Source of the DNA: a virus
Strand: one strand, 5' to 3'
Virus record (IMG/VR): IMGVR_UViG_3300032284_001165
Coordinates: 1-62,823 of that record
DNA length: 62,823 bases
Shown here: in pieces, positions 4,766-52,049 of the stretch
Layout of the letters: the number at the start of each line of letters is the position of its first letter
Position numbering within the stretch: position 1 is the stretch's first letter
The notes under the pieces: generated by a model
Database searches by the model: none
Told to the model about the DNA's origin: nothing
What the model saw: the letters and a program-made list of their open reading frames with translations, nothing else
Translations under genes and position numbers: made by a program

Positions 4766-5050
4766 ATGGCCCGTAAGTTTGTCGTACCGATTGGTCTGCT
4801 CGCTTCTGCGACCGACCCTACGGGCCATAACGTTGGCGACACGTATTTTAACACCGCAATAAGTGCAATAAAAATTTATGATGGCGTTTCTTGGATTATA
4901 AGTTATGGCGCTGTACAGGGAACAACTGGTAGCCAGGGAACAACAGGTACTCAAGGATTAACAGGTCTACAGGGTTTAACGGGTTCACAAGGAACCCAAG
5001 GTATAACTGGCTCATTTTCAGGAACAACTATTGATGGGGGTACAGCATGA
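4766..5050 (+). CDS. Short collagen-like protein 3
   Basis: A 94-residue protein with an N-terminal domain opening MARKFVVPIGLLASATDP, like that of the preceding fibre, then about 30 residues of Gly-X-Gln/Thr triplets and the tail TTIDGGTA. It overlaps the next collagen-like start by four bases. It lacks a C-terminal knob and ends in the same IDGG(T/S)A peptide as the next protein, so it looks like a shortened sister copy or a stalk base. Confidence 0.7.
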   Translation: MARKFVVPIGLLASATDPTGHNVGDTYFNTAISAIKIYDGVSWIISYGAVQGTTGSQGTTGTQGLTGLQGLTGSQGTQGITGSFSGTTIDGGTA

Positions 5051-6726
5051 TTGACTTCCCAGTAGGGGCAGAAGTTGGGTTTATTTACACAGTTGGTGAT
5101 CGCTCTTGGCAGTGGACCGGTGTTGCATGGAAAGCTGTATCAACTACCTATGGTCCCCAAGGTATACAAGGTTTATCTGGAGCACAAGGTGCAGATGGTT
5201 TGCAAGGAGCTGATGGTGCTGGTGCTCAAGGTGCTCAAGGAAGTAGTGGACTGGGTACACAGGGTTCCACAGGTATTCAGGGTATTAGTGGTGCTCAAGG
5301 CATTGGTGGTTTTCAAGGAACTCAAGGTATTGTTGGAGCTGGAACACAGGGTGCAACCGGTATTCAAGGCGCAACAGGTGTTCAAGGACATTATGGACTA
5401 CAAGGTGATTTAGGTGCTCAAGGCATTCAAGGAGTACAAGGTGGGTACGGCATACAAGGTGCTCAAGGAATTCGTGGTAATCAAGGTGTACTTGGTAACC
5501 AAGGAATAACTGGTAATCAAGGTATTCAAGGTTTTGTTGGAATTATTGGATCACAAGGTGTTCAGGGATTTACTGGATCTACAGGAATTCAAGGTCGTAC
5601 AGGACCACAAGGAGACACTGGCTCTTTAGGATTTCAAGGCGTTCAAGGCAACCAAGGTATACAAGGTTTGCAAGGTTTGCAAGGTTTGCAAGGTGGAGGA
5701 TTTAACCAGTTACAAGGTATTCAAGGTTCAATAGGTAATCAAGGTATCCAAGGCATAACTGGATTGCAAGGCGTACACGGTATACAGGGTATTCAAGGAC
5801 AAGCTATCCAAGGAACAACCGGGGCGCAGGGAACGCAAGGCGCTATCGGTACACAGGGACAGTATGGAAATCAAGGTGTTCAAGGTATAAGTATCCAAGG
5901 CACAGTTGGTCCACAAGGCGTTCAGGGAGTACAAGGCGCACACGGTGTACAAGGATATGGTTTTTCCCAATTACAAGGTGTTCAAGGTAATCAGGGTACC
6001 CAAGGTAACCTCGGTATCCAAGGTTACTATGGCTTACAAGGTATACAAGGAAATTATGGTCCACAAGGTGTTCAGGGCAATTTAGGAATACAAGGGTCTT
6101 TTGGTGTACAGGGTTATCAAGGTTTCTTAGGTAACCAGGGTACTCAAGGTATTCAGGGCATTCAAGGCAACCAAGGAACACATGGTGTTCAAGGTAACTA
6201 TGGTGTACAAGGAATCCAAGGTCTACAAGGACTACAAGGTTACATTGGACTACAAGGTTTTGTAGGAATTCAAGGTTTCTACGGATTACAAGGTATTCAG
6301 GGAATTCAAGGATTGCAAGGTGTTCTTGGTCTTAAAGGTGACCCTGGTACATCCGTAACAATTTTGGGAACCTACCCAGATTATGCATCTTTAGTTGCTG
6401 ATCATCCAACAGGTAGCCCAGGAGATGGTTACTTAATTGCGGGAAATCTTTGGGTATGGGAAGGCACCGCATGGGTTAACGTAGGAACTATTCAAGGCCC
6501 ACAAGGTATCCAAGGAAACAGTGGTGCCGATGGTGTTCAGGGTGTGCAGGGACTTCTAGGTCTACAAGGATCTACGGGCGTAATCGTAGCAAACCCGCCT
6601 TTAAACTATAGCTCGGGAAGTTTAACAATTGCATATGGCGTAGGATTAACCATTAGTGGTACGGCCCTGTCACTAGACAGTACTGTTCTTACCACTAATA
6701 CAGGAATTGATGGGGGTTCGGCCTAA
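5047..6726 (+). CDS. Long collagen-like stalk protein 4
   Basis: A 559-residue protein. After a 35-residue Trp-containing head (DRSWQWTGVAWK), about 390 residues are Gly-X-Y repeats dominated by G-I/V/L/T-Q. They are briefly interrupted by GGGFNQLQG and GYGFSQLQG, which would kink the triple helix. A short domain (YPDYASLVADHPTGSPGDGY, residues about 440-475) and a second short collagen segment precede the tail NTGIDGGSA. It has almost no Pro, the residue that usually stabilises collagen. Likely a long flexible trimeric fibre shaft. Confidence 0.75.
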   Translation: MIDFPVGAEVGFIYTVGDRSWQWTGVAWKAVSTTYGPQGIQGLSGAQGADGLQGADGAGAQGAQGSSGLGTQGSTGIQGISGAQGIGGFQGTQGIVGAGTQGATGIQGATGVQGHYGLQGDLGAQGIQGVQGGYGIQGAQGIRGNQGVLGNQGITGNQGIQGFVGIIGSQGVQGFTGSTGIQGRTGPQGDTGSLGFQGVQGNQGIQGLQGLQGLQGGGFNQLQGIQGSIGNQGIQGITGLQGVHGIQGIQGQAIQGTTGAQGTQGAIGTQGQYGNQGVQGISIQGTVGPQGVQGVQGAHGVQGYGFSQLQGVQGNQGTQGNLGIQGYYGLQGIQGNYGPQGVQGNLGIQGSFGVQGYQGFLGNQGTQGIQGIQGNQGTHGVQGNYGVQGIQGLQGLQGYIGLQGFVGIQGFYGLQGIQGIQGLQGVLGLKGDPGTSVTILGTYPDYASLVADHPTGSPGDGYLIAGNLWVWEGTAWVNVGTIQGPQGIQGNSGADGVQGVQGLLGLQGSTGVIVANPPLNYSSGSLTIAYGVGLTISGTALSLDSTVLTTNTGIDGGSA

Positions 6727-6770
6727 TTGAAAAAGTTAGTGTTGTATACTAGTTCTCTAAGGAGCCATAA

Positions 6771-7895
6771 ATGACAGTACAAACAGTTATTAAACACCGC
6801 CGCGATACTGCGGCTAACTGGACTGCTGCCAACCCTACACTAGCTGCAGGTGAAATTGGCGTTGAAATTGATACACTTAAGTTTAAGATTGGTGATGGCG
6901 GTACTGCATGGACTGTTCTTGCATATCAGAATACACAAGGCCCACAAGGTATCCAGGGATTACAAGGACTTCAAGGTAATGCTGGCTATGTAGGTAGCGA
7001 CGGTGCACAAGGTCTACAGGGTAGACAAGGAACTCAAGGTGTGCAAGGCACACAAGGAATCCAAGTTCAAGGAACACAAGGTATCCAGGGTAATATTGGT
7101 ACACAAGGAATTGTAGCCTCAAGTACTGCTCCAACAAATACCTCTATTTTATGGGTTGATACCTCTCAAACATCTCTTACATCAGTAAGTGGTGGAACCG
7201 TAACAAGAGATACAAATATACAACTCCGCAGAGACACCGCTGCAAACTGGACTTCATCAAACCCTACGCTTGCAGTTGGTGAAACTGGTTTTGAAACTGA
7301 TACTGGTTATTCAAAGACAGGTAATGGTTCAACTGCTTGGACAAGTTTACAATATGGTAACTTTCAACAATTTAAACGCGGGTATATTTCTCAAGCTTGG
7401 TACTACGGAGGATTTGCTGGCAGTGGTGGAACAAATAGTGCTATAACGCAAAATACTTTACACGCCATACCATTTTATGTAGGTAACACAACAACTTTTG
7501 ATAGAATAGGTATTAATGGTGTTGGCGGTGCTGCTGGAACAGTACGCCTAGGAATTTACTTAGATAACAATGGTTTACCTGGAACACTTTTGGCAGACTA
7601 TGGAACTGTTAGCATGGGCGGAAGTGGTTTTCTTTCTATTACAATTTCTCCAACATTGTCTGGAATAGTATGGTTAGCGGCTGTGTCACAGGGTGCAGGA
7701 TGTACTACTAGTACAGTGGGTTTCATGTATAACCCATTTATTGGAAATACAGATAGTCCTTATGCTAGTGGTGCAAGTGGAACAGGATATTATCAGACAG
7801 GTGTGAGCGGGTCATTACCCTCGACGTGGGGAAGTACATTTAACATATTAAGAGCTGGAACGATTACTCCCGCAATATATATGAGGACGGTATAA
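6771..7895 (+). CDS. Fibre protein with two Mtd-N-like domains and collagen segment
   Basis: A 374-residue protein. Residues 1-50 (HRRDTAANWTAANPTLAAGE through KFKIGDGGTAW) match the pattern of the major tropism determinant N-terminal domain. A collagen-like Gly-X-Gln segment covers about 55-115. A second Mtd-N-like copy (LRRDTAANWTSSNPTLAVGE) spans about 145-200. The last 170 residues form a Gly/Thr-rich beta domain (RLGIYLDNNGLPGT) that may be the binding tip. Start preceded by TAAGGAG. The last base of the stop codon overlaps the next ATG. Confidence 0.75.
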   Translation: MTVQTVIKHRRDTAANWTAANPTLAAGEIGVEIDTLKFKIGDGGTAWTVLAYQNTQGPQGIQGLQGLQGNAGYVGSDGAQGLQGRQGTQGVQGTQGIQVQGTQGIQGNIGTQGIVASSTAPTNTSILWVDTSQTSLTSVSGGTVTRDTNIQLRRDTAANWTSSNPTLAVGETGFETDTGYSKTGNGSTAWTSLQYGNFQQFKRGYISQAWYYGGFAGSGGTNSAITQNTLHAIPFYVGNTTTFDRIGINGVGGAAGTVRLGIYLDNNGLPGTLLADYGTVSMGGSGFLSITISPTLSGIVWLAAVSQGAGCTTSTVGFMYNPFIGNTDSPYASGASGTGYYQTGVSGSLPSTWGSTFNILRAGTITPAIYMRTV

Positions 7896-8098
7896 TGGCA
7901 ATTCACATAACTTACGGTGAAGGCGGATTTTGTGAAAATTGTGACCCTAATCACCCCCACCCTTTTAATAATATAGTTGAACAAATTGAAGTACCAGATG
8001 AAATATCTATAGATATACATCCAGATAAAAAATCTGCTATGAATAAATTAATTGCTCTAGGACTGACTGAAGAAGAAATTAAGGGGTTGTTATCATGA
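7895..8098 (+). CDS. Small acidic protein with CxxC and HPHP motifs
   Basis: A 67-residue acidic protein with CENCDPNHPHPF near residue 13, which could bind one metal ion, and a C-terminal helix ending LGLTEEEIKGLLS. It overlaps both neighbours by one to four bases, so it is translated with the fibre genes. A role as a fibre chaperone or adaptor is a guess from position only. Confidence 0.65.
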   Translation: MAIHITYGEGGFCENCDPNHPHPFNNIVEQIEVPDEISIDIHPDKKSAMNKLIALGLTEEEIKGLLS

Positions 8099-11000
8099 GT
8101 GTTGTTAAATACTATGACACAGGTTCTGCCCAATGGATAGCAGCAGCTTACGGTGCACAAGGCGTTCAAGGTTTACAAGGCACACAAGGTTTACAAGGAC
8201 CACAAGGCCCAAGTGTAACAGCTGGTCCTGGACTTCAATATGTTTCGGGTATTGTTCAACTACAATCACCTACTGGTACTGGTAACAACGTAGTATTGCA
8301 AAATACACCAACGCTTACTACTCCAAATATTGGTGCTGCAACAGGTACATCAGTCATTGTAACGGGCCAATTACAGGGAACGTCTATACAAAGAACTGGT
8401 GGTACTTCAGCTCAGTTCCTTAAAGCTGATGGGTCAGTAGATGGAAATACTTACATAACTGGTTTAACAGGGGCAGTACTTACTGCTGGTGGTTCAACAA
8501 TTACGCCACCTACTGCTGACATAAAAGGTCTTATTATTAAGCCCGCAACCACTGGTCTTAGCGCAACTATTACTGGAGCGTCTGTAACCTCTTCTTTTGC
8601 AAGCATAACTGGTGGAAGTATAACTGCATCTACAGCTACAACTACTATTACAGGAATAAGTTCAACGGCAGGTCTTGCTATTGGAATGAAGCTGACCAAA
8701 ACTGCTGGTACAGGAGTTTTTGGGGGTACCGCTGGAACTACGGTAATTAAAAGCGTTGATAGTGCAACTCAAATTACTATTTTTTCTACAGCCGCAAACA
8801 CTGCTGGAACTATCACATTTTCTGTTGCTCCACCAACAGGTGGAGTTACATACACAGCAACAAATTCATTTTCTGTTGGACAATTAGTTTCTGTAACGGG
8901 AGTTGTTCCATCTACATTAAACCCAACATATATATATTCAGAAATTGTTGGCGCTAACTCTACAACCTTTACTATTATAGCTGGACTTACTGGAGTTTAT
9001 ACCTCTGGTGGAACTGCAACGGCATGGTCTAACACACAAGAATGGCAAAATCCTTCAGGAACAGCTTCAGCTCAAATAAATGCATTGGGAGCAAGTAAGT
9101 TTACTGGTTTAATAAATGAATTTAGCCTTACTAATGGTATCCACCTGGGTGTTGGTGGTGGAGTTTCTATTGGTTCTGATACGTCCCCTAGATTACTTTT
9201 TGTTCCTCCTGGGGTTACAGATTATCTAAGTAACTGGCAGATAGATGTAAATGCTGGAGTTTTTAGATGGTTTACTCCAGGCAACGTAGCGATGAGCCTT
9301 ACAACTGCGGGAGCACTTTCTGTAGCGAGTACTGTTTCAGCTTCCGGTCAAATTCAAGCACTTTCTGCAGGAAGTACCGCAGATGGAACTGGTCAAATCT
9401 ACTTAAACGGATCTACAAGCAATAGAATTGAATTTTCTACAACTGGTAGTAACGCTCCATCTTATACTACAAGGTCTTCAGGAACTAAAATCCTTTTGTA
9501 CCCTCAGACTACAGGCTCTTCAGTTGACCACGCAATTGGATTAGATGCCAATACACATTGGGTTTCAGTGCCTACCTCTGCACATTTCTTTAAGTGGTAT
9601 GCAGGAACTACACTTGTTGGAACATTAACTGGTGCTGGGGTATTTACAACAACATCACTTATTGGAAACCAGATTCAAATTACATCATCAAGCGGTGGTG
9701 TTAAAGGTGTAACAGTAAAGCCTGCGGCTGCTGGACTTACTGCAACTATTACTAACGCAGTACAATCGGCTGGTACAGTAACCTATACAGCAACTAACTC
9801 ATTTACCGCAGGGCAACAAGTAACTATTACTGGTATCACCCCTACTACTTTTAACGTTACTAATGCTACTATTGCTTCTGCTACTGGCTCTAACTTTACA
9901 ATAGTCAATGCCTCACTTGGTGGAACTTACTCATCTGGCGGAACAGCAACAGCGTATGCCAACTTGCAAGAATGGCAGACAAACGCTGGAGTTTCCCAAG
10001 TAGTAGTAAACCAAGCAGGTTATGTAACAACTCCAAATACAGAACTTGTTATGGAGCAAACTGGTGATAGTTATGGCACCTCTCGCTTACGTTTGCAAAA
10101 CCGTGGCGGTCAAAACGGTCCATTGTTTGATACTTCAAATAGCACAGTAGATTTAGTTGACTTTGGTTTTAAGTCTATTTCTGGACAAGGAAATATACGT
10201 TATGAAGCCAGAGCATTTAGCGCTGCGGCTACCATAACAAATGGTCCAGAATTTCAAATTGGAAATACACAATTAACTGCACAAGGTGGACTTTTAGGTT
10301 CAGCAACATCATTTCCTCTTATAGTTGGAACAGGGCTAACTGACCGAAAAATACAAATTAACTCTACCACTGGTAATACTGTACCCCTTACTATTAAAGG
10401 AATAGCAACAAATACAGCAACCATTACTGGTGCAACAGTAACTACGTTTGCTAATATAACTGGTACCCTTATTACTCCTCAAGGTGTCTCTGTGGGAGTT
10501 TCAAGAATTACTGGTATAGCCTCAACAGCAAACCTATTACCAGGGATGACACTCACTTATGTTTCTGGTGCTGGTACATTTGGTGGAGGAACTGGACAAA
10601 TCATATCCGTTGATACTGCAACATCTATCAGCATATATACAACAGCATCATCTGTAGCAGGTTCAATTACATTCTCTATTCAAAATTCTGTAACATACAC
10701 GGCTACTAATACGTTTTCACAGACGCAAAACGTAACTATTACTGGAGCAACAGCTGGAACTCTTAACGTAGCTAATGCCTTTATTGGAGCAGTAACAGCT
10801 TCTAACTTTACAATTATTAATACCACCGCTTCTGGTACTTGGTCATCGGGCGGTACGGCAACAATTACTCAATCTGCGGGGTTAACCTCTTGGATAGGTT
10901 CAGCTGGTACATCTGTTGCCTCTATAGATACTTCTGGTAACGTAACGGCTACATCGCTTATTAAGTCTGGCGGTACTTCAGCTCAATTCCTTAAAGCTGA

Positions 11001-12264
11001 TGGATCAGTAGACAGTTCTACATATGCAGCAGCTTCTGCAGTAGCTACAGTAGCTGGAGTAAGAGCTGCTACTCAGGTATTAGCTAAGCAGTCCTATGTA
11101 GGCTCTAACAATATTATTCCAGCGTATTCATCCCCCGCGGGTTATGACACCGCTATTGACTCCCTATCATTAACTAACTTAAACGCTGGTTCTGCCTCTA
11201 TTAAGATGTTTTTAACTAACAAAAACATTGAAAACCAAAAATATATTGCAGTAGCACAAGGACCATCAACAAATGCATCTACTTCCACTGATGGTATAAC
11301 TTGGACTTTAACAACTATGCCAGTATCTGCAGCCTGGAGATCAGTAGCTTACGGTAATGGAGTATTTGCTGCAGTAGCAAATAGCGCAACATCAGCGGCT
11401 ACTTCAACTGACGGCATAACTTGGACTTTAACAACTTTGCCATCATCTGCATCTTGGTATTTAGTAACTTACGGTAACGGAGTATTTGTTGCAGTAGCAT
11501 ATGGCCCAACAACAACAGCTGCTTCCTCAACTGATGGAATCACTTGGACGCTAAGAACTATGCCATCATCTGCAAACTGGCGCACAGTAACTTATGGAAA
11601 TGGTGTTTTTGCTGCAGTAGCAAACAACTCAACAACAGCGGCTTCATCAACTGATGGCGTTACTTGGACTTTAAGAACTATGCCAGCATCTGCAACTTGG
11701 AGCTCGACAACTTATGGAAATGGTATATTTGCTGCTGTAGCAAACGGACCATCAACAAATGCAGCTAGCTCAACCGATGGTATAACTTGGACGCTAAGAA
11801 CCTTGCCAGCAGTTGCATTCTGGGTTTCAGTAGCCTATGGAAATGGTGTATTTGCTACAATAGCACCAAGCTCATCATCAGCGGCCTCATCAACTGATGG
11901 CGTTACTTGGACTTTAAGAACTAATGCATCATCATCTGCAAACTGGAACGCAATGGTTTATGGAAATGGTGTATTTGTTGCAATATCACCAAGCTCAACA
12001 ACAGCGTCCTCATCAACTGATGGAATCACTTGGACGCTAAGAACTATGCCATCATCTGCAAACTGGCAAGGAGTAGCTTCAGGACATGTTCAGGACTACG
12101 AGCTAATCTATAAAAATACTGCTTTAGCAACTAACGCTACTGGTTGGCTTGATGCTAACAAGTATGACCCTATCTTTGTACCAGCTGGATACTCTGTAAT
12201 TGCACAGTCTTCAGTATCCCCGGTTAATATTCAACTATCAGGAGAAAAGTGGGTTAACACATAA
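8095..12264 (+). CDS. Giant adhesin: collagen start, repeated beta modules, inserted seven-repeat propeller
   Basis: A 1389-residue tail fibre/adhesin. It opens with a short Trp domain and collagen-like triplets (to about residue 42), then common fibre motifs (TSAQFLKADGSVDGNTY, repeated near residue 965). Three copies of a beta module (VTYTATNSF...FTI...SGGTATA) lie at about 250-310, 560-625 and 865-925. Seven tandem repeats of about 40 residues with S-T-D-G-[IV]-T-W then follow, about residues 1050-1330. The repeats sit inside a small beta domain that resumes as QDYELIYKNTALATNATGWL and ends VNIQLSGEKW. Likely the main receptor-binding fibre. Confidence 0.75.
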   Translation: MSVVKYYDTGSAQWIAAAYGAQGVQGLQGTQGLQGPQGPSVTAGPGLQYVSGIVQLQSPTGTGNNVVLQNTPTLTTPNIGAATGTSVIVTGQLQGTSIQRTGGTSAQFLKADGSVDGNTYITGLTGAVLTAGGSTITPPTADIKGLIIKPATTGLSATITGASVTSSFASITGGSITASTATTTITGISSTAGLAIGMKLTKTAGTGVFGGTAGTTVIKSVDSATQITIFSTAANTAGTITFSVAPPTGGVTYTATNSFSVGQLVSVTGVVPSTLNPTYIYSEIVGANSTTFTIIAGLTGVYTSGGTATAWSNTQEWQNPSGTASAQINALGASKFTGLINEFSLTNGIHLGVGGGVSIGSDTSPRLLFVPPGVTDYLSNWQIDVNAGVFRWFTPGNVAMSLTTAGALSVASTVSASGQIQALSAGSTADGTGQIYLNGSTSNRIEFSTTGSNAPSYTTRSSGTKILLYPQTTGSSVDHAIGLDANTHWVSVPTSAHFFKWYAGTTLVGTLTGAGVFTTTSLIGNQIQITSSSGGVKGVTVKPAAAGLTATITNAVQSAGTVTYTATNSFTAGQQVTITGITPTTFNVTNATIASATGSNFTIVNASLGGTYSSGGTATAYANLQEWQTNAGVSQVVVNQAGYVTTPNTELVMEQTGDSYGTSRLRLQNRGGQNGPLFDTSNSTVDLVDFGFKSISGQGNIRYEARAFSAAATITNGPEFQIGNTQLTAQGGLLGSATSFPLIVGTGLTDRKIQINSTTGNTVPLTIKGIATNTATITGATVTTFANITGTLITPQGVSVGVSRITGIASTANLLPGMTLTYVSGAGTFGGGTGQIISVDTATSISIYTTASSVAGSITFSIQNSVTYTATNTFSQTQNVTITGATAGTLNVANAFIGAVTASNFTIINTTASGTWSSGGTATITQSAGLTSWIGSAGTSVASIDTSGNVTATSLIKSGGTSAQFLKADGSVDSSTYAAASAVATVAGVRAATQVLAKQSYVGSNNIIPAYSSPAGYDTAIDSLSLTNLNAGSASIKMFLTNKNIENQKYIAVAQGPSTNASTSTDGITWTLTTMPVSAAWRSVAYGNGVFAAVANSATSAATSTDGITWTLTTLPSSASWYLVTYGNGVFVAVAYGPTTTAASSTDGITWTLRTMPSSANWRTVTYGNGVFAAVANNSTTAASSTDGVTWTLRTMPASATWSSTTYGNGIFAAVANGPSTNAASSTDGITWTLRTLPAVAFWVSVAYGNGVFATIAPSSSSAASSTDGVTWTLRTNASSSANWNAMVYGNGVFVAISPSSTTASSSTDGITWTLRTMPSSANWQGVASGHVQDYELIYKNTALATNATGWLDANKYDPIFVPAGYSVIAQSSVSPVNIQLSGEKWVNT
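11246..12080 (+). repeat. Seven tandem 120/123-bp propeller repeats, copy A
   Basis: The ACTGATGG-type core recurs at 11287, 11407, 11530, 11650, 11773, 11893 and 12016, giving a period of 120 or 123 bases. Each unit encodes SSTDGITWTLRTMPSSANW followed by a variable stretch and YGNGVFAAVA. Seven units suggest a seven-bladed beta-propeller. Confidence 0.85.
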
Positions 12265-13481
12265 TGGCTACTTGGAATAGAGATGAATCCACACTACGCA
12301 AGGCTTTTGTATCTCAAGGAGAAGCTGCGGTTACTAACTCAACTCCCGTATATCGTTCTCCTCAGAGTAAAACCTCTTATGTAAAAAAGATTGTTGTAAC
12401 TAATAACTCCGGTACTGCAGGCACTTTTGATATCTCATTACATGAGAATAGCTTCATACAAGGTGGAAACGTATTTGTTGCTGTAGCATATGGCCCATCA
12501 ACAGCAGCAGCATATTCAACTGACGGTATTACTTGGACGTTAAGAACCTTGCCATCATCTGCAGCTTGGTATGGAGTAGCTTATGGAAACGGTGTTTTTG
12601 CTGCAGTAGCAGGCGGCCCAGCATCAACAGCAGCCTCTTCCACTGATGGTATAACATGGTCTTTAAGAACTTTGCCAGTATCTGCAAACTGGCAATCAGT
12701 AACTTACGGTAATGGGGTATTTGTTGCAACAACAATCGGCACAACAACATCAGCGGCTTCATCAACTGATGGTATAACTTGGACGCTAAGAACTATGCCA
12801 TCATCTGGATATTGGTATGGAGTAGCTTATGGAAACGGTGTTTTTGCTGCAATAGTACAAAACTCAACATCGGCAGCTTCATCTACTGACGGAATTACTT
12901 GGACTGCTAGAACTATGCCATCATCTGCAAGCTGGATTTCAGTAGCTTATGGAAACGGTGTTTTTGCTGCAGTAGCAAGCAGCTCAACATCAGCGGCAAC
13001 CTCAACCGATGGTATAACTTGGACGCTAAGAACTATGCCATCATCTGCATTTTGGTATTCAGTAACGTACGGCAATGGTGTTTTTGCTGCAATATCATAT
13101 GGATCAACATCGGCAGCCTCATCTACTGATGGTATTACTTGGACGCTAAGAACTATGCCATCATCTGCAAACTGGTTTGCAGTAGCATATGGCAATGGAG
13201 TATTTGCTGCAGTATCAGCATCCTCAACATCAGCAGCCACATCCACTGATGGTATTACTTGGACGCTAAGAACTATGCCATCAAACGTAAACTGGAATGC
13301 AATAGCTTACCCACAGCGTTCAGACTTCTCTAGCGATAACTACCTATATAAGTCAGTAAATATAGGTTTTGGTACATCAGCAACCCAGTCTATATCTTAT
13401 GAAGTTATGGTTCCTCCTACCCACGAAATTAGAGCTAGAGCTACAGTACCGGTGCAGGTAACCGTTATAGGCGAGGTATAA
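12264..13481 (+). CDS. Adhesin with inserted seven-repeat propeller
   Basis: A 405-residue protein that is essentially one small beta domain split by a propeller. Residues 1-65 (KKIVVTNNSGTAGTFDISLH) are the first half and the last 55 (SDNYLYKSVNIGFGTSATQS to VTVIGEV) the second. Between them seven repeats of about 40 residues carry S-T-D-G-I-T-W and YGNGVF(A/V). The motif is one residue shorter than the classical Asp-box (SxDxGxTW). It overlaps the preceding adhesin by one base and probably works with it at the fibre tip. Confidence 0.75.
   Translation: MATWNRDESTLRKAFVSQGEAAVTNSTPVYRSPQSKTSYVKKIVVTNNSGTAGTFDISLHENSFIQGGNVFVAVAYGPSTAAAYSTDGITWTLRTLPSSAAWYGVAYGNGVFAAVAGGPASTAASSTDGITWSLRTLPVSANWQSVTYGNGVFVATTIGTTTSAASSTDGITWTLRTMPSSGYWYGVAYGNGVFAAIVQNSTSAASSTDGITWTARTMPSSASWISVAYGNGVFAAVASSSTSAATSTDGITWTLRTMPSSAFWYSVTYGNGVFAAISYGSTSAASSTDGITWTLRTMPSSANWFAVAYGNGVFAAVSASSTSAATSTDGITWTLRTMPSNVNWNAIAYPQRSDFSSDNYLYKSVNIGFGTSATQSISYEVMVPPTHEIRARATVPVQVTVIGEV
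12463..13320 (+). repeat. Seven tandem 120/123-bp propeller repeats, copy B
   Basis: Cores recur at about 12519, 12642, 12765, 12885, 13005, 13125 and 13245. The unit is nearly the same as copy A. The residues just after the Trp (YG, QS, YG, IS, YS, FA, NA) and the loop after FAAVA are the main variable positions, while the scaffold is strongly kept. Confidence 0.85.
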
Positions 13482-13517
13482 TATGATACAGTATAAAGAT
13501 AGCCTTAAGGAGACACT

Positions 13518-13802
13518 ATGTCAGTAAGATATGAAATCGAAGATGGTACAAATGCCGTAAAGGTATTCTATGATGATAGTACAGTCCCATCCCTCTATCA
13601 ACCAAACTATCCAGGTGGAGATGCTTGGGCAGATGCTGCTGAAGCAGCGGCTTGGGCGGAACTATACATTGAATCTATTGTAAACGAAGATGCCCCATAT
13701 GCTCCAGGAAATCGTGGAGAAGAGGGTGGCAAAAAGCCTACACCTGAAGAGATTGCAGCTCAACAAGCTGAACTAGAAGCTAGCCGTAATCCAGCAGAAT
13801 AA
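13518..13802 (+). CDS. Small protein at end of fibre block, unknown
   Basis: A 94-residue protein with AAGGAG before its ATG. A beta-type start (VRYEIEDGTNAVKVFYDD) is followed by an Ala/Glu-rich helix (DAAEAAAWAELYIESI) and a charged, probably disordered tail. I do not recognise the family; its position between adhesins and glycosyltransferases suggests a fibre-associated role. Confidence 0.65.
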   Translation: MSVRYEIEDGTNAVKVFYDDSTVPSLYQPNYPGGDAWADAAEAAAWAELYIESIVNEDAPYAPGNRGEEGGKKPTPEEIAAQQAELEASRNPAE

Positions 13803-13822
13803 CTATTAACGAGGGCGACTAA

Positions 13823-14533
13823 ATGGAACACTATGACGTACTAATTGCAACACCCGGCGCAATGCTAGAGGCTCAGTATGTTAAGAGTCTAGTGTTAACT
13901 TTAGCCGAATGTGATAGGCGGGGAATCACTTACAAGTGGTTAAACGCCTACACATCCCTTGTTCATCATGCTCGTGAGTTAACCGCTAGTGGTATAGAGG
14001 GAATGCAGCTTGATCCCACCCAAACTACACCTGGTGGTAAAGACATCACCTATAACAAGATTTTTTGGATTGACTCAGACATTTCTTGGACCACTGAGCA
14101 GTTCTTTAAAATATACGACTCAGAATATGATGTAGCTTGCGGCTCTTATCTACTAGCTGATGGTATGACTACAACTGTTCATGCGTGGGGAGCACCTGGC
14201 GGTATGCCTGCCCATGAGATTGTAAAGATTACAGAACCTCTACGTGTACAAAGTTGCGGGTTTGGTTTTGTCGCCATGAAGTCGGGAGTATTTGAAAAGA
14301 TTCAACGCCCTTGGTTCTCCCACGAATATGTAAAAGTCGGGGAAGATGCAAACGGCAAAGACATTATGGATGCTGTGGGTGAGGATATCTCTTGGTGCGT
14401 TAAAGCCTATCGTGCAGGTATTGAACTTTACTTTGACCCTACAGTTCTAGTAACCCACATGAAGAAACAACCTATTACCTGGGACCATATCCCTAAAAAC
14501 TTTGTCCCTTCTACATTTAAACAGAGGCTCTAA
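13823..14533 (+). CDS. Glycosyltransferase-like protein (GT-A fold type)
   Basis: A 236-residue protein with features of family 2-type glycosyltransferases: an N-terminal strand (YDVLIATPGAMLEAQYV), a helix holding ARELTASG, and a DSD motif in FWIDSDISW (near residue 79) that would bind the metal and nucleotide-sugar phosphate. A later E/D-rich segment (AVGEDISWCVKAYRAG) matches the usual acceptor-activating region. The stop overlaps the next start by one base, so the two transferases are likely a pair. It may decorate virion proteins or alter host surface sugars. Confidence 0.7.
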   Translation: MEHYDVLIATPGAMLEAQYVKSLVLTLAECDRRGITYKWLNAYTSLVHHARELTASGIEGMQLDPTQTTPGGKDITYNKIFWIDSDISWTTEQFFKIYDSEYDVACGSYLLADGMTTTVHAWGAPGGMPAHEIVKITEPLRVQSCGFGFVAMKSGVFEKIQRPWFSHEYVKVGEDANGKDIMDAVGEDISWCVKAYRAGIELYFDPTVLVTHMKKQPITWDHIPKNFVPSTFKQRL

Positions 14534-15270
14534 TGGCTAAGAAACCACAGTCAGTATTTATTGCTACCCCGATGTACGGAGGTATGTGCCATGGCTCTTA
14601 TGCTAAGAGCCTATTTAACACTATGAAGCTCTTACTTGATAGTGGTTACGAGGTCCAATTTAGGGATATGTATAATAACTCTATTATCACAGAGGCAAGA
14701 GATTCCCTTACCCAGATGTTCTTAAATTCTGGATGTAACTATCTATTCTTTATAGATGCGGACCAGTCTTTTAAGCCAGAAGATGTACTACGCATGATTA
14801 AAGAAGATAAAGATATTATTGGTGGGGTTGTACCTAAAAAGCGTATTAATTGGGACACGGTTTCAGAAGCTACAAAACACGGGGTGCCTGCAGATAAGCT
14901 CAGCAAGTTTAGCGGGGAGTTTAATCTAGCCCTACTACCTGGTGCAGAGCAACCAGAAGACTTTACTAAGTCCTTTGAGGTATCCCATATTGGCACAGGT
15001 ATGATGATCATCAAGCGTTCTGTATTTGAAAAGTTAAAACCCCAAACTAAAGCCTATCTATTTTCATCTACGGGTGTTCTTGGTATTAACCCAGGAGATA
15101 CTCTTAATCAATACTGGAAATGTGAAGTATCAAGTTCAGGACTTTTAATGGGTGAGGATGTTAATTTCTGCAATATGTGGAGAGACTTGGGAGGAAAAGT
15201 ATTTGCTGCCCCATACGCTAAAACAACCCATGTTGGATCTTATGAGTTTGACGGTACTTTAAACCCCTAA
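14533..15270 (+). CDS. Glycosyltransferase-like protein (GT-A fold type)
   Basis: A 245-residue relative of the preceding protein: N-terminal strand VFIATPMYGGMCHGSYAKS, ARDSLTQMFL helix, and the metal-binding FIDADQSF motif near residue 75. SSSGLLMGEDVNFCNMWRDLGG is the likely catalytic-acid region. The 3' end overlaps by 12 bases the end of the convergent - strand TPR gene, with no room for a terminator between them. Confidence 0.7.
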   Translation: MAKKPQSVFIATPMYGGMCHGSYAKSLFNTMKLLLDSGYEVQFRDMYNNSIITEARDSLTQMFLNSGCNYLFFIDADQSFKPEDVLRMIKEDKDIIGGVVPKKRINWDTVSEATKHGVPADKLSKFSGEFNLALLPGAEQPEDFTKSFEVSHIGTGMMIIKRSVFEKLKPQTKAYLFSSTGVLGINPGDTLNQYWKCEVSSSGLLMGEDVNFCNMWRDLGGKVFAAPYAKTTHVGSYEFDGTLNP

Positions 15271-15810
15271 CCTATCCAAGTTAGCTTGTATAGAAACCTT
15301 ATACTGAACAGGAAGTTTTTGAGACAGTAAGTCTACAAATAAACTCTTAGACTCTTGTGCACGTCCCACCCACCAGCCTGCTACAGCCTTTTCAAATAGC
15401 AACCCTAATTTACCAGGATAATCTAAAAATTCATTTGCTTGGTCTAGTGAATGATACAAGCCAAGTTCAGCCCAGGTATAGCACTCTCTCCATTCAGCGT
15501 TACGCTCATGGAATCGGGACATTAAAAAGTACCCTTCTTCTCTATGAGGCTGTAAAGCAACCGCTTGTAGTATGCAGTTACTAACTGTATGCTTCCTATC
15601 ATTTTGGCTTTCAAAACATATAGACATACGCAATAGCGATTGATAGGCTAGGTCTGGATGGGTTTCATAACCAAACTCAGCAGTGCGTAGATAAAAAGAA
15701 ACTGCGGAGGCCGTTTGTCCACGGCTATCATATTCTTTGGCACAAGCAAAGTTAAGTTCGGGATTAAAGGGATCACTAGATAGATTTACTACTAAGTCCT
15801 CAATGCGCAT
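15259..15810 (-). CDS. TPR-like protein, partner of sugar enzymes
   Basis: A 183-residue, mostly helical protein with TPR-like pairs (FACAKEYDSRGQTASAVSFY, then LQPHREEGYFLMSRFHERNA and ECYTWAELGLYHSLD). Such helical repeats often accompany glycosyltransferases in phage and bacterial surface loci. It is encoded on the - strand just after the GH130-like gene, overlapping it by 11 bases, so the two form a small operon against the general direction of transcription. Confidence 0.65.
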   Translation of the reverse strand: MRIEDLVVNLSSDPFNPELNFACAKEYDSRGQTASAVSFYLRTAEFGYETHPDLAYQSLLRMSICFESQNDRKHTVSNCILQAVALQPHREEGYFLMSRFHERNAEWRECYTWAELGLYHSLDQANEFLDYPGKLGLLFEKAVAGWWVGRAQESKSLFVDLLSQKLPVQYKVSIQANLDRLGV

Positions 15811-16801
15811 AGTTAGTTGCCTCTTTTACTAGTCCGTCAATTAAATCCCCGGGAGTTCTTAATACAAAAGCGCAGTTATCTTGAAACCCAAAGGAAATAA
15901 ACAGATCTCCTTGGTATTCAGCAGCACCCACACAGAACTCAATCTGCCCATCTAAAAATGAGAATGGGTTAGAAATACCTATAAAGTTAAAGTCCTCATC
16001 CCACAATACTAGGCGATGGCGATATAGTCCATCTTTTTGCATAAGATAGTTTTTATATAGGTCTACCTCATGGGTAATGGAAATATATTGACCCTTCCAC
16101 TTAAGTACATGGGAGCTTCCACGTTGGTCCTTAGGAGCCGCAGGAGTCGTTTTAAGGGCCTCTTGTGTAGTGTCTGGGGTATCTGGGTGGGAGTATACAA
16201 TTTCGGTCGGCATAGTCCATTTAACAAAGGTATAGGGCCTATCCAAAACCGGTACCCAGTTCTTTTCACAATAAGATTCATCGGGTTCTGGTGTAGGAAT
16301 ACGCTTACGGACTATTTCCTTAACAGTCCAGTTAGTCTTATCTAACTCAATTTTGGTGTACTCCATACGTCCTTGACCATTGGTAGTGGTATCTCTACGT
16401 ACCCCGATTAAATAATAGGAACCTTCCCATTGAACTATTCGGGCATCTTCTAAACCAACGAACTCCCATATAGGTGTATGAAGGCTTAACATCTCAACAC
16501 GAGTGTAATCAGTCATTTCTAGATCTGAGTTAAGCCTACATAGGTAGTTCTCAGTTATAAGACGTTGATCCTTTTCAGGGTGTAAGTAAGCTAAAGGACC
16601 CCAGCGTGAAGGAAACTTTTGAGTATTCTCAGAATGATAAAGTGTGTAGTTAACGTGGCGTAAATTAACTAGAATATCCCCATCGTCATCTATAAAAATA
16701 GATGGGTTCATTAAACCCGTACCAGAAGTAAGGCCTTGGGATATTACGAGGGGTGCTAATTTGCCCCCTTGGGCTACCGCCCGTTGCACCAGATTGTCCA
16801 T
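15800..16801 (-). CDS. GH130-like five-bladed propeller glycoside phosphorylase/hydrolase homologue
   Basis: A 333-residue protein with blade-like motifs of the GH130/GH43-type propeller enzymes: MNPSIFIDDDGDILVNLRHV, GLEDARIVQWEGSYYLIGVR, EKNWVPV, RGSSHVLKWKGQYI and IEFCVGAAEYQGDLFISFG. GLEDAR and EKNW are typical landmarks of GH130 relatives. It probably binds or cleaves a mannose-type glycan, but I cannot confirm a catalytic acid. There is no ribosome site; a TATAAT ends eight bases before the ATG, suggesting a leaderless message. Reads against neighbouring genes. Confidence 0.65.
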   Translation of the reverse strand: MDNLVQRAVAQGGKLAPLVISQGLTSGTGLMNPSIFIDDDGDILVNLRHVNYTLYHSENTQKFPSRWGPLAYLHPEKDQRLITENYLCRLNSDLEMTDYTRVEMLSLHTPIWEFVGLEDARIVQWEGSYYLIGVRRDTTTNGQGRMEYTKIELDKTNWTVKEIVRKRIPTPEPDESYCEKNWVPVLDRPYTFVKWTMPTEIVYSHPDTPDTTQEALKTTPAAPKDQRGSSHVLKWKGQYISITHEVDLYKNYLMQKDGLYRHRLVLWDEDFNFIGISNPFSFLDGQIEFCVGAAEYQGDLFISFGFQDNCAFVLRTPGDLIDGLVKEATNYAH

Positions 16802-16808
16802 ATAACCT

Positions 16809-16814
16809 ATTATA
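16809..16814 (-). promoter_or_regulatory. -10 element for leaderless - strand operon
   Basis: On the - strand TATAAT lies just before the ATG at 16801, so transcription would begin at or within a base or two of the start codon. No Shine-Dalgarno sequence is present. This arrangement is frequent in actinobacteria. No clear -35 is seen. Confidence 0.5.
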
Positions 16815-16889
16815 CCCTAGGTAGTTTGGGTAAAAGACAGGGTAAATATGGCATATACTTTAGGCTACTAGCAACTCTCAAGGAGTCCC

Positions 16890-17234
16890 ATGGCAATCAC
16901 ATACAAAATTTTAGGTCAAACAATGGCTGCAGCTACAAATGCTGAAACCGTTCTATATACAGCTGGTCAATATGTCTCTGGAGCATCTGCAGTTGTCTCT
17001 ACTATTACTATCTGTAATCAGCTATCTACTGCAGCATCATATACAATTGCAGTACGTCCATCTACTACAGGCTCAACTCTTCCACAAAACCGCATTGCAT
17101 ACAATGCTCCTATTGCTGGAACAGATACAACGGCTCTAACTATTGGAGTAAGCTTAGCCCCTGGTGATAAGATTATCGTTTCAGGCTCTACTACTACTCT
17201 TTCATTCTCAGCTTTTGGAACTGAAATACTCTAA
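16890..17234 (+). CDS. Small beta-domain surface protein, uninterrupted form of the adhesin domain
   Basis: A 114-residue beta protein (TICNQLSTAASYTIAVRP, RIAYNAPIAGTDTTALTIGV, LAPGDKIIVSG). Its layout matches the two halves that flank the propellers in the adhesins ending at 12264 and 13481: first half ending in a T/D-I strand, second half with a tyrosine-containing strand and P-x-x-x-I turn. Start chosen at ATG after AAGGAG. Likely a virion decoration or fibre tip domain. Confidence 0.65.
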   Translation: MAITYKILGQTMAAATNAETVLYTAGQYVSGASAVVSTITICNQLSTAASYTIAVRPSTTGSTLPQNRIAYNAPIAGTDTTALTIGVSLAPGDKIIVSGSTTTLSFSAFGTEIL

Positions 17235-17236
17235 AG

Positions 17237-18145
17237 ATGACCCTTAAAAGAAGCCTACTCTCTAGTAGCCTAAATACTGGGGATCGTTTTCATTTGTTTA
17301 ACGCCACATCTCAGTACAACTATTTAGCGGGTACTGCTTCAGGCACAACAGCAAGTGGATTGCTTACAGTTACATTTGGAACACCATTTGCAACAATCCC
17401 GTCTATTAGTCTTAACCTTGCTCAAGTAACAAACATTGCAGCAGGTCTTAGTGCCATTAATGTAACTACTACGGGGTTTCAGATTCTTGCTTTCCAACTT
17501 GAAGGCGGAACAACTAATGGGTTACCTATAGCCAACACATCTATTACAGTTGACTGGATTGCAGTTAGCCCTATTGGTTCTGCAACAGGAATATCAGCTG
17601 GGTACACCTCAGCTATTACAACAGATGTAAATGGAAGCTACCGTGTTAACTTCCCAGTTGCATATACTAGTACTCCAATTGTAGTAACTACTTATAGAGA
17701 TAACACTTCTTTCTTAGCCCAAGATAACACAAACCATTTTGTATCAGCTGTAGATTTAAACGGATTTGTTGTTACCTTTAGTGCAGGAGAAAATGGCGAC
17801 TTATGGAGAAGCAGTGCTGCAGGTCAGCTCTCTTGGGTAGCTAATCCACCAGCAAGTGTTAATAGTGGATTTAGTAGTGGGTCTGTTACAACGGCTAACT
17901 CTACAGTTTCTCCATCTTATACCGCCCCTGCTGGATTTGGAACAACCTATACTGGAACACCTATCGTGTGCGCAGGCTGGGGTTCTCTACCAGAACCTGT
18001 TGGAACAAACGAACCTGGTGCTGAAATTTACATTACATCTAAAACTACCACAGGATTTACTGCCCAAATTGAAACTTACGAAGGAAGTCTACCAACCTTT
18101 ACACGTACATATAATTGGATAGCTGCAGTTCCTAAGAGTTCTTAA
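17237..18145 (+). CDS. Virion protein with three H-type-lectin-like modules
   Basis: A 302-residue protein with three similar beta modules of about 85-95 residues. Each has a P-x-(I/V) strand (FATIPSISLNLAQ; YTSTPIVVTTYRDN; YTGTPIVCAGWGS), a T-x-G-F strand and a closing W-x-A (VDWIAV, LSWVAN, YNWIAAV). This is the pattern of H-type lectin domains that bind N-acetylgalactosamine-like sugars. Only three bases separate it from the previous gene, so both are likely made together. Sugar binding is inferred from pattern. Confidence 0.6.
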   Translation: MTLKRSLLSSSLNTGDRFHLFNATSQYNYLAGTASGTTASGLLTVTFGTPFATIPSISLNLAQVTNIAAGLSAINVTTTGFQILAFQLEGGTTNGLPIANTSITVDWIAVSPIGSATGISAGYTSAITTDVNGSYRVNFPVAYTSTPIVVTTYRDNTSFLAQDNTNHFVSAVDLNGFVVTFSAGENGDLWRSSAAGQLSWVANPPASVNSGFSSGSVTTANSTVSPSYTAPAGFGTTYTGTPIVCAGWGSLPEPVGTNEPGAEIYITSKTTTGFTAQIETYEGSLPTFTRTYNWIAAVPKSS

Positions 18146-20532: not shown

Positions 20533-22107
20533 ATGACTACCTACAATACTGGTCGGCCCGGCGTCTTTATTCAAGAAGTAGCCCTTCCACAGGTTGTGAC
20601 CCTACCTGACACAGGCACCGCAGTTGGTGCTCTTGTTGGAGTATTAGGACAAGGCCCAACCGATGTACCGGTTCTACTTCAAAGCTGGACAGACTTTGTA
20701 AATACGTTTGGTCCTCTTAATGACGTCTATCCAACCACATGGGCTGCCTTTAACTTTTTTGCTAATGGCGGACGTTCCCTTTATATTAAGCGCATTCCTG
20801 GAACTGCATCAGCTGCATCTATTACATTAGATGACGCATCAGTTTCTGCAACGCCAACACTTACAGTTTCAGCAAAAAACCCAGGAACATGGGGTAACTA
20901 CCTTTCTGTTTCTGTAGATGCAGGTTCTGCAGCAGGTCGTTTTAACCTTGTTGTTTACAAGACAACTATAGTATCAGGACGCTCAAGTACGGCTGTTGCT
21001 GAGACATGGCGCGATCTTACACTAAGCGCAATTGATCCTCACTATGCACCAATTGTTATTAATACTGGTTCTAAGTTAATTAGTCTTGTTGACCTTGGTT
21101 CTACATCTACTGCCCCAACCAATATCCCAGTAGCTTCGTCTGCTGCATATCTAAGTGGTGGAACAGATGCGGGATCAGCACCAGTTCGATCTGACTTTGC
21201 AGATGCTTTACTAACATTTGATGCTATCGATAATCCTATTATCTTTAACTTACCTGATGCCGGTTATATCTATAACCCAGTTACAGGTATCTCAGATCAA
21301 CGCACACTTTCTATCAACATCCAAGCTGATGCAGTGGCTTATGCGGATGCTCGTAATGATGCCTTTGTTATCATCGACACACCAAGTAGCCTAACAGTTC
21401 CAAATGCACAGCAATATGTATCTGATGTGGCTGCTGCTTTTGCCGCTAGCTCAACAGGAAACGTTGCTGCGGCTTATTATCCATGGCTTGAAATTCCAAA
21501 TACCTTGAGCGCAGCTCCAGGTGCTCTTCGTCACCAGGCTCCTGGTGCAGCTATGATCGGACAGTATCTTGCAACAGATGCTTCACGAGGTGTCTTTAAG
21601 ACTCCTGCTGGTTACGGCAACCGTGTAGCAATTGCAGTTGCTACTGAAACCCAACTTACAAATGCCCAACTTGATTCACTCAACGTAGGCACATACCCAA
21701 TCAATGCGATCCGTCAGATTCCTGGTGTAGGCATAGTTGTTATGGGTGGCCGTACATTGGATGCAGATCCACGTAACCGCTATATCAACATTCGTCGTTC
21801 CCTTAACTACATTGAGAAAGAACTTAAGCGTCTTTCTGCATTTGCTGTCTTTGAGAATAACGATTCAATTCTTTGGGGTAAGCTACGCGCCACACTAGGC
21901 AATTTCTTGTCAAGTTACTGGCAGCAAGGCGGACTCCGCGGTACAAGTCAATCCCAGGCATTCTACGTGACCTGTGATGCATCTAACAACTCCTTTACTG
22001 ATATGCAAAACGGCACTGTTAATATCTCAATAGGTGTTGCTTTAGAGTATCCAGCAGAGTATGTTGTTATTCAATTGGGACAAATCACAGCTAGCGCTAC
22101 GGCCTAA
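20533..22107 (+). CDS. Tail sheath protein
   Basis: A 524-residue contractile sheath protein. The N-terminus (TTYNTGRPGVFIQEV) and FVNTFGPLNDVYPTTWAAFN match the classical sheath family; the C-terminal domain (INIRRSLNYIEKELKRLSAF, GTVNISIGVALEYPAEYVVI) is the strand-swapping part that meshes subunits. It polymerises around the tail tube and contracts to drive it through the envelope. AAGGAG precedes the ATG; the gene is followed 13 bases later by the tube gene. Confidence 0.93.
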   Translation: MTTYNTGRPGVFIQEVALPQVVTLPDTGTAVGALVGVLGQGPTDVPVLLQSWTDFVNTFGPLNDVYPTTWAAFNFFANGGRSLYIKRIPGTASAASITLDDASVSATPTLTVSAKNPGTWGNYLSVSVDAGSAAGRFNLVVYKTTIVSGRSSTAVAETWRDLTLSAIDPHYAPIVINTGSKLISLVDLGSTSTAPTNIPVASSAAYLSGGTDAGSAPVRSDFADALLTFDAIDNPIIFNLPDAGYIYNPVTGISDQRTLSINIQADAVAYADARNDAFVIIDTPSSLTVPNAQQYVSDVAAAFAASSTGNVAAAYYPWLEIPNTLSAAPGALRHQAPGAAMIGQYLATDASRGVFKTPAGYGNRVAIAVATETQLTNAQLDSLNVGTYPINAIRQIPGVGIVVMGGRTLDADPRNRYINIRRSLNYIEKELKRLSAFAVFENNDSILWGKLRATLGNFLSSYWQQGGLRGTSQSQAFYVTCDASNNSFTDMQNGTVNISIGVALEYPAEYVVIQLGQITASATA

Positions 22108-32834: not shown

Positions 32835-33380
32835 ATGTCCTCAGCTACATTCCCAAATAGAGTACGCTCGTTTAGTGCTAAGGTAGACTTGGTTGACTAC
32901 GTACTTGCTGATCACGTTAACTCACTTCAGAATGAAGTGGTGGCGCTTGAAAAATCTTTAGGTGATACAGGTAGTGGTGGCACTTCTTATCTCTTATCTA
33001 GATTTGATGCGACACCTTTTAGCACCTCAGTTCTTGACTGGAGTGTTAATGGCAACCTAGGCGCTCGTCTTCTTAATATTGAAGCCGGTCTTGTTAATGG
33101 TGTGTCTAACAGTCCATATGTAAGAATTAAAGGCGGTTCTATTATTCAACCGCTTTCTGGATCTGTGGGCCTTACACTTCAAACCCAAGCCGGTACAGCT
33201 AACCTTATTACTACGCTTTCTAGTGGGGCGGTACTTGGCTTTAATGTAGACTATATGGGTATTCCTAAAGTAGGAACCGCTAATGTAGTGTACGTAGGAA
33301 GCTCGGACTATAACAACATTCTTTCAACTGCGGCTTCAGCTGCAGCATCTATGCACCCATTCTTACTAGGCGGATTGTAA
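32835..33380 (+). CDS. Tail protein, probable fibre attachment or wedge-associated
   Basis: A 181-residue protein with a helix-forming start (DYVLADHVNSLQNEVVALEK) that is common in phage fibre-base proteins, followed by beta segments (LTLQTQAGTANLITTLSSGA). It lies between the J-like wedge and a very large tail protein. The AGGTAAATAA sequence before the ATG is only a modest ribosome site. Confidence 0.55.
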   Translation: MSSATFPNRVRSFSAKVDLVDYVLADHVNSLQNEVVALEKSLGDTGSGGTSYLLSRFDATPFSTSVLDWSVNGNLGARLLNIEAGLVNGVSNSPYVRIKGGSIIQPLSGSVGLTLQTQAGTANLITTLSSGAVLGFNVDYMGIPKVGTANVVYVGSSDYNNILSTAASAAASMHPFLLGGL

Positions 33381-51377: not shown

Positions 51378-51684
51378 AGGACAAAAACAATCCCTAAAAC
51401 ATGAAAAGCGTTTAGAGAAAGTTGCAGGTGGCAAGCGCAACGCCGCCTCCGGTGCTTTTTGGTCTCGTAAAGGAGACGTCAGAACAGACGATCTTCTTAT
51501 CGAACATAAATGGACTGGAAAGAAGCAGGTGACTATTAAGTCAGACGTGCTTCAAAAGATAATAACAGAAGCAGTTCTAGATAGCAGAACACCTGTTCTG
51601 GGATTGCATCTTGACGGTGAGAACTACGTAGTACTCTTGGAGGAGGATTTTTTTGAACTGCGCAATGCAGTAAGAGGAGAGTAG
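51367..51684 (+). CDS. Small PD-(D/E)XK-type nuclease, possible Holliday junction resolvase
   Basis: A 105-residue protein whose core (KRNAASGAFWSRKGDVRTDD followed by LLIEHKWTGKKQVTIKS) has an acidic residue and E-x-K in the right order for a PD-(D/E)XK nuclease. The strand VLGLHLDGENYVVLLEEDFF ends the fold. Next to RecA, a resolvase or recombination nuclease fits. Start overlaps the RecA-like gene by 11 bases. Confidence 0.65.
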   Translation: MKSEGQKQSLKHEKRLEKVAGGKRNAASGAFWSRKGDVRTDDLLIEHKWTGKKQVTIKSDVLQKIITEAVLDSRTPVLGLHLDGENYVVLLEEDFFELRNAVRGE

Positions 51685-52049
51685 TGCGTTACAAAGACGA
51701 CCCCGATTGGGCTTGGAGATATGAAGCCAAGTGTCGTGGAGAAGATACAGAGTTATTCTTCCCTCCACGAGACAAAGCACTCTACAAACCTATTGCAGAT
51801 AAGGCTAAAGCTATTTGTTGGGGCAAGGATGGAAGACCGCCTTGTCCGGTACGGAAAGATTGCCTTAAGGAAGCTATCTTAAATGAAGAATTGCACGGAA
51901 TTTTTGGTGGGTTATCTCATCGAGAGAGAAATGCAGCTGAACGTAAGATGCGTAAACAAGGTTTAACATTAGATGAGTGGCTTAAACAGGAGGACACAGA
52001 TGGCAAAGCAAACAAGCATCCCGAGCAAGGATCTAAAAGCCTTTCTTAG
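51684..52049 (+). CDS. WhiB-like iron-sulfur regulator 2 with changed cysteine spacing
   Basis: A 121-residue WhiB-type protein starting at GTG 51684. Cysteines C17, C45, C54 and C60 are in the expected order, but the middle pair is C-x8-C (CWGKDGRPPC) instead of CxxC, so a six-residue loop is inserted. GIFGGLSHRERNAAERKMRK replaces the usual GVWGG turn and gives the basic tail. It probably still binds an iron-sulfur cluster and acts on transcription. Confidence 0.75.
   Translation: MRYKDDPDWAWRYEAKCRGEDTELFFPPRDKALYKPIADKAKAICWGKDGRPPCPVRKDCLKEAILNEELHGIFGGLSHRERNAAERKMRKQGLTLDEWLKQEDTDGKANKHPEQGSKSLS

Follow-up and report, generated by a model that had tools for sequence, protein, structure and literature searches.

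A small phage domain interrupted by a predicted seven-bladed propeller, and its empty and filled versions in related viruses

Virion binding modules inserted into a loop are already known, as are propellers in phage tails. The evolved Dit proteins of lactococcal and other Gram-positive siphophages have an internal binding module that is present or absent within phage groups (PMC6669499). The nozzle protein of phage SU10 has a seven-bladed propeller that is entered and exited via one opening from a platform domain (PMC9509320), and the Bdellovibrio fibre Bd2133 has a tip domain, a beta-sandwich, at the fibre end (PMC10769870; PDB 8ok3). Here we describe two adjacent genes, ORF1 and ORF2, and a third gene nearby, ORF3, in a virus record of 62,823 bases (the window, which is the whole stretch of DNA analysed).

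ORF1 and ORF2 resemble evolved Dit in having a candidate binding module inside a virion protein that some phages have with the module and others without it. However, the carrier of evolved Dit is the Dit baseplate hub and its insert is a BppA-like carbohydrate-binding module (PMC6669499), whereas the carrier in ORF1 and ORF2 is a domain of the ORF3 family and the insert is a predicted seven-bladed propeller; searches of Pfam and PHROGs gave no Dit match for ORF1, ORF2 or ORF3. ORF2 is predicted to be similar to the SU10 nozzle in that its propeller is joined through one neck to the flanking platform domain, but the nozzle has a structural role in the tail channel and is not reported as a variable fibre head that is gained and lost. 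The tip of Bd2133 is the best PDB fold match to ORF3, albeit a weak one (Foldseek E 6e-4, TM ~0.45, 12% identity) and with no sequence-profile match between the two, and it differs from ORF1 and ORF2 in being without a propeller insert.

The sequence-only reading of the window knew of no described phage adhesin with this layout. We also found no description of the platform–propeller layout, or of its repeated gain and loss, in the open-licence literature, and among annotated phage records none matched more than 80% of an ORF2 query or of a query from L113, one of the related contigs discussed below. The pairing of platform and propeller with repeated gain and loss appears to be undescribed.

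Genes and predicted domains of the locus

Judged from its gene sequences, the window phage is contractile-tailed, because a sheath gene at 20533 (its closest matches, from Streptomyces phage BRock and relatives, are 35% identical) is followed by tube and tape-measure genes, named from gene order and sequence. Its host is likely an actinobacterium, because the window has a gene for a WhiB transcription factor (51684-52049; PF02467, E 5e-17). ORF1 and ORF2, which share one overlapping base (12264), sit within a run of fibre-type genes (4766-13481) that includes collagen-like repeats and a Mtd_N-type protein. Behind the adhesin genes (13518-15270) come a gene for a conserved protein of small size and either one or two genes resembling glycosyltransferases (MxHYDVLIATPG...), and the same types of genes likewise lie 3' of the adhesin genes in most insert-bearing relatives. 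An H-type lectin protein (17237-18145; PF09458, E 4e-14) adjoins ORF3.

Table 1. Coordinates in the window of the three genes and of their predicted domains.
Feature	Position	Strand	Basis
ORF1, 1389 aa, predicted platform domain interrupted by propeller at C-terminus	8095..12264	+	
ORF1 predicted platform, first half, aa 988-1045	11056..11229	+	joined-flank HMM; L070 orthologue
ORF1 predicted seven-repeat propeller, aa 1046-1328	11230..12078	+	seven motifs; alignment with ORF2 propeller
ORF1 predicted platform, second half, aa 1329-1389, plus stop	12079..12264	+	joined-flank HMM, alignment
ORF2, 405 aa, predicted platform domain interrupted by propeller	12264..13481	+	
ORF2 predicted platform, first half, aa 1-65	12264..12458	+	HMM; AlphaFold2
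ORF2 predicted seven-bladed propeller, aa 66-348	12459..13307	+	AlphaFold2; Foldseek
ORF2 predicted platform, second half, aa 349-405, plus stop	13308..13481	+	joined-flank HMM; AlphaFold2
ORF3, 114 aa, uninterrupted same-family domain	16890..17234	+	profile, PHROG 1276, AlphaFold2

ORF1 has a short collagen-like N-terminal stretch, then a long fibre-like region and then the interrupted platform at its C-terminus. The range first proposed for the feature, 11200-17234, applies to the last 400 or so residues of ORF1; the gene itself starts outside that range, at 8095, and its upstream remainder is a separate fibre-like region. Both ORF1 and ORF2 have seven STDG[IV]TW motifs, with spacings of 40, 41, 40, 41, 40 and 41 residues in ORF1 and of 41, 41, 40, 40, 40 and 40 in ORF2, in agreement with the seven repeats of 40-41 residues initially noted. 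Each array is 283 residues long and comprises seven full blades in register, from a first FVAVA-type strand to a last xWxxVAY-type strand.

Structure prediction points to a propeller, as had been proposed from the repeats. The AlphaFold2 model of ORF2 (overall pLDDT 88) consists of four strands (14-21, 27-31, 38-47, 53-61), a propeller and four further strands (359-367, 373-383, 387-393, 397-404), and in it the repeats are predicted to close into a seven-bladed ring with a pLDDT of about 92-97; values were low at the two necks (65-67 and 353-357). The input alignments for AlphaFold2 were shallow, at 17 and 39 sequences. Foldseek matched the ORF2 propeller to seven-bladed structures, including 7bid (TMt 0.74, rmsd 3.9 over 302 columns) and virginiamycin B lyase (2z2p, TMt 0.76), and the same fold is probable for ORF1, given the 72% identity of the two propellers. 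PDB sequence searches with ORF2 and with profiles of ORF2 and ORF3 returned nothing credible; a match to 2l04 (7e-4) was dismissed as compositional, as it starts in the platform and extends into the propeller while the matched domain has 91 residues.

Phage propellers labelled DUF6242, BNR or EPTP have the same repeat type as ORF1 and ORF2. The EPTP profile (PF03736; cut-off 21 bits) scored 32.6 for ORF1 and 19.8 for ORF2, with no single stretch passing, and the DUF6242 profile (PF19755) matched neither protein, with matches in three of 17 insert-bearing proteins. The closest predicted viral structure among the matches listed was A0A6J5SXG5 (TMt 0.86, 42% identity). The best-ranking structural matches were confined to the propeller and none of those listed spanned the whole of ORF2, the highest TMq among the best 50 listed being 0.64.

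The sequence-only reading had also pointed to flanks on both sides of each array, and these are present in ORF1 and ORF2: a pre-array strand (SIKMFLTN in ORF1, FDISLH in ORF2) and, after the array, a Tyr strand, a turn with P-x-x-x-[IV] and a closing V-T/N-I strand. An HMM of 62 uninterrupted ORF3-family sequences, with ORF1 and ORF2 excluded, was run on the flanks with the array removed. The joined flanks of ORF2 gave an E of 4.4e-8 versus 6.2e-7 for the N half alone, those of ORF1 gave 1.4e-4 versus 0.013, and those of fourteen other insert-bearing proteins gave 1e-18 to 1e-26. In comparison, the joined flanks of the full set of 18 proteins were residue-shuffled 3,600 times in total, with a best E of 0.0026. 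ORF1 and ORF2 matched the whole-domain profile only after removal of the insert. The score of the C halves of ORF1 and ORF2 alone was not significant with this HMM, so support for the C side comes from the joined alignment, from close relatives, which align along the full 109-position profile, and from the order of the strands in the models. The AlphaFold2 model of ORF3 (pLDDT 91.3) has eight beta strands, whose number and order are common to the four plus four strands of the ORF2 model. That the flanks represent one split ORF3-family domain is supported by the profile and by the number and order of the predicted strands, and for the ORF1 platform the same assignment is supported by sequence. 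The protein at 16890 accordingly fits the description, given from the outset, of the same domain without the insert.

ORF3-family domains were found at 57 viral loci, and ORF3 itself is by sequence a member of PHROG 1276, the family that includes proteins of Pontimonas phage phiPsal1 and Pelagibacter phage HTVC010P. Those members are uninterrupted, unlike ORF1 and ORF2, and the PHROG 1276 annotation in phiPsal1 is "putative virion structural protein". Some proteins of the ORF3 family have matches in PHROGs with the name tail fiber protein. A search of bacterial genomes with one pattern, the ORF3 profile, found no relative.

Occurrence of the layout in other viral contigs

With the whole of ORF1 as query no match was obtained in viral contigs, so the C-terminal part was used instead; an alignment of eight flanks was too divergent to serve as a query. 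Scans of viral contigs with the ORF2 and ORF1 alignments revealed at least 160 distinct propeller ORFs. The flank-profile search that had been suggested for proteins with and without inserts found both kinds, including at least 18 proteins with a platform split at the same loop, at least 16 of them outside the window. The 18 include ORF1, ORF2 and two syntenic orthologues in contig L070.

Motif counts over complete arrays peak at six and seven, and in the six-motif proteins that we inspected the seventh blade is apparently shared between the two ends. One protein of 726 aa (L123:2438-4618) has about fourteen motifs in the same platform loop, and these are probably two propellers in one socket. 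A second insertion site, near the N terminus of the platform, is occupied by propellers in at least L118, L091 and L176, among others. At this N-terminal site we also observed a CBM_4_9 domain (L041:6330-8453) and a 230-residue insert without family assignment (L068:5827-6888). Elsewhere, four tandem propeller genes (L003:5812-10257) each have six full motifs, the seventh blade apparently being formed jointly by both ends, and no platform domain was detected in them.

In close relatives the same gene was observed both empty and filled. The empty L098:9936-10268 (110 aa) and the filled L086:2005-3201 (398 aa) are 78% identical in DNA across the N flank and 94% across the C flank, each is then followed by a gene beginning MPTSIYPAVSSS, and further downstream their DNA is 97% identical over 1.56 kb. 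In this pair the insert stands in place of a loop of about ten residues. A second pair, the empty L084:5633-5986 (117 aa) and the filled L113:4673-5962 (429 aa), has flank DNA identities of 82% and 94%. L098 also has paralogues of both kinds, one empty (8354-8686) and one filled (5983-7152). A tree of the joined flanks indicates at least four gains or losses by well-supported branches, and the best tree needs six. On that tree ORF3 is a distant cousin of the ORF1 and ORF2 platforms; a role for ORF3 as their direct empty-site ancestor has no support from the tree, in which its placing is unsure and branches are long.

The inserts also vary separately from the domain that carries them. Between contigs, mean propeller identity was 0.46 when the flanks were more than 0.6 identical and 0.47 otherwise; because propeller identity does not follow flank identity, the evolution of the head is independent of that of the socket. 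The window pair is distinct in this regard. ORF1 and ORF2 are 72% identical in their propellers and 27% in their flanks, whereas against the L070 orthologues the flanks are 62-65% identical (65% for ORF1) and the propellers 53-59%, and blades at the same position in orthologues resemble each other no more than those at different positions do. The propellers in the window were thus copied or homogenised between long-separated platforms, and the pair bears the mark of either a recent copy, a conversion or re-amplification in parallel. The earlier suggestion that the insertion happened or was copied in two adjacent genes therefore holds for the propellers, but the two platforms themselves separated long ago. 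General homogenisation of propellers within genomes was considered and rejected: same-contig pairs averaged 0.48 versus 0.47 for others, and only the window pair stands out. Variable codons in the repeats include CAA, AGA and TTA. A diversity-generating retroelement was also discarded as the source of variation, as the record, possibly an incomplete one, gave no match to RVT_1.

A candidate receptor-binding head and competing explanations

The blades vary chiefly at positions 16, 17 and 19 (3.3-3.5 bits), next to a nearly invariant Trp18. In the ORF2 model these positions lie at the turn between two strands (e.g., approximately residues 142-145 in blade 2) and, because of the rotational symmetry, all seven sets are predicted to be on one face of the disc, as a candidate binding face would be.

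We consider it probable that the small eight-stranded domain is a fibre-tip platform and that the inserted seven-bladed propeller is a cassette-like head that binds the host receptor. The ORF3-family domain would serve as the platform and, in ORF1 and ORF2, a complete propeller would be inserted between strands 4 and 5, so that the chain exits and re-enters via one neck and the propeller projects. The projecting propeller, which may bind a sugar or a protein, would be the receptor-binding head, and the variable residues beside the Trp would form an adjustable binding surface. The insert would act as a cassette, in that the same genes occur with or without it and its sequence changes apart from that of the platform, and it may move by recombination.

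In ORF1 the platform ends a fibre-like chain within one polypeptide. Elsewhere, a short hydrophobic C-terminal tail (FLLMGA, FLFGGM, HPMFIIGGV) was observed in 34 of 67 distinct genes directly upstream of ORF3-type genes and in 44 of 2,381 other genes across L013-L069 and the insert-bearing loci, a ratio that is descriptive as the pattern was picked after the tails had been seen; several of the misses are tail variants or tandem platform genes. The tail is possibly a peptide by which the fibre docks to the platform. No tail-bearing upstream gene adjoins ORF1, ORF2 or ORF3 in the window. One window gene (32835-33380) ends in HPFLLGGL ahead of a 1307-aa protein.

The strongest alternative, which we regard as unlikely, accepts both the split domain and the propeller but takes the latter for a structural spacer or an element of assembly, with no host contact. 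Propellers do have structural roles in phage tails, as does the seven-bladed one of podovirus nozzle proteins, e.g. in SU10. However, one would expect phages to keep and conserve a structural part, whereas this insert is missing from close relatives and varies apart from the platform, mostly at a few positions per blade.

That the propeller is instead an enzyme, for example a glycosidase acting on surface glycans, is quite improbable. Asp-box (BNR) propellers include sialidases, and the Asp-box consensus is S-x-D-x-G-x-[TS]-[WF], which S-T-D-G-x-T-W resembles; BNR-named phage proteins were also among the structural matches. Nevertheless, S-T-D-G-[IV]-T-W departs from the Asp-box motif in being one residue shorter between D and G, the near-identical blades leave no distinct catalytic blade, and no enzyme family match was obtained. 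Still less probable is an arrangement in which each flank is a small domain of its own, one at either end of the propeller. The lack of an HMM score for the C half alone and the low pLDDT of the necks speak for it, but joined flanks outscore either half, relatives cover the entire profile, and the same genes also occur uninterrupted. An assembly artefact, conceivable for repetitive DNA in a metagenomic contig, can practically be dismissed, as the ORF1 and ORF2 arrays differ at 28% of residues and L070, an independent contig, carries the two genes in this order too, again with seven repeats in each.

With the propeller as a projecting receptor-binding head, the swappable head looks like a means of changing what the phage sticks to. 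We give roughly even chances to the broader proposal that a loop of a widespread fibre-tip domain is a dedicated socket in which intact propellers, among them the apparent double one of L123, are repeatedly added, taken out or exchanged whole, so that receptor specificity changes while the platform and its docking stay constant. The natural series of empty and filled alleles in close relatives offers a model for the gain and loss of candidate receptor-binding heads, and a propeller able to enter and leave a single loop would make a natural scaffold on which to engineer binders. Overall, our data suggest a partial role, as a fibre-tip platform, for a widespread and functionally uncharacterised family of virion proteins.
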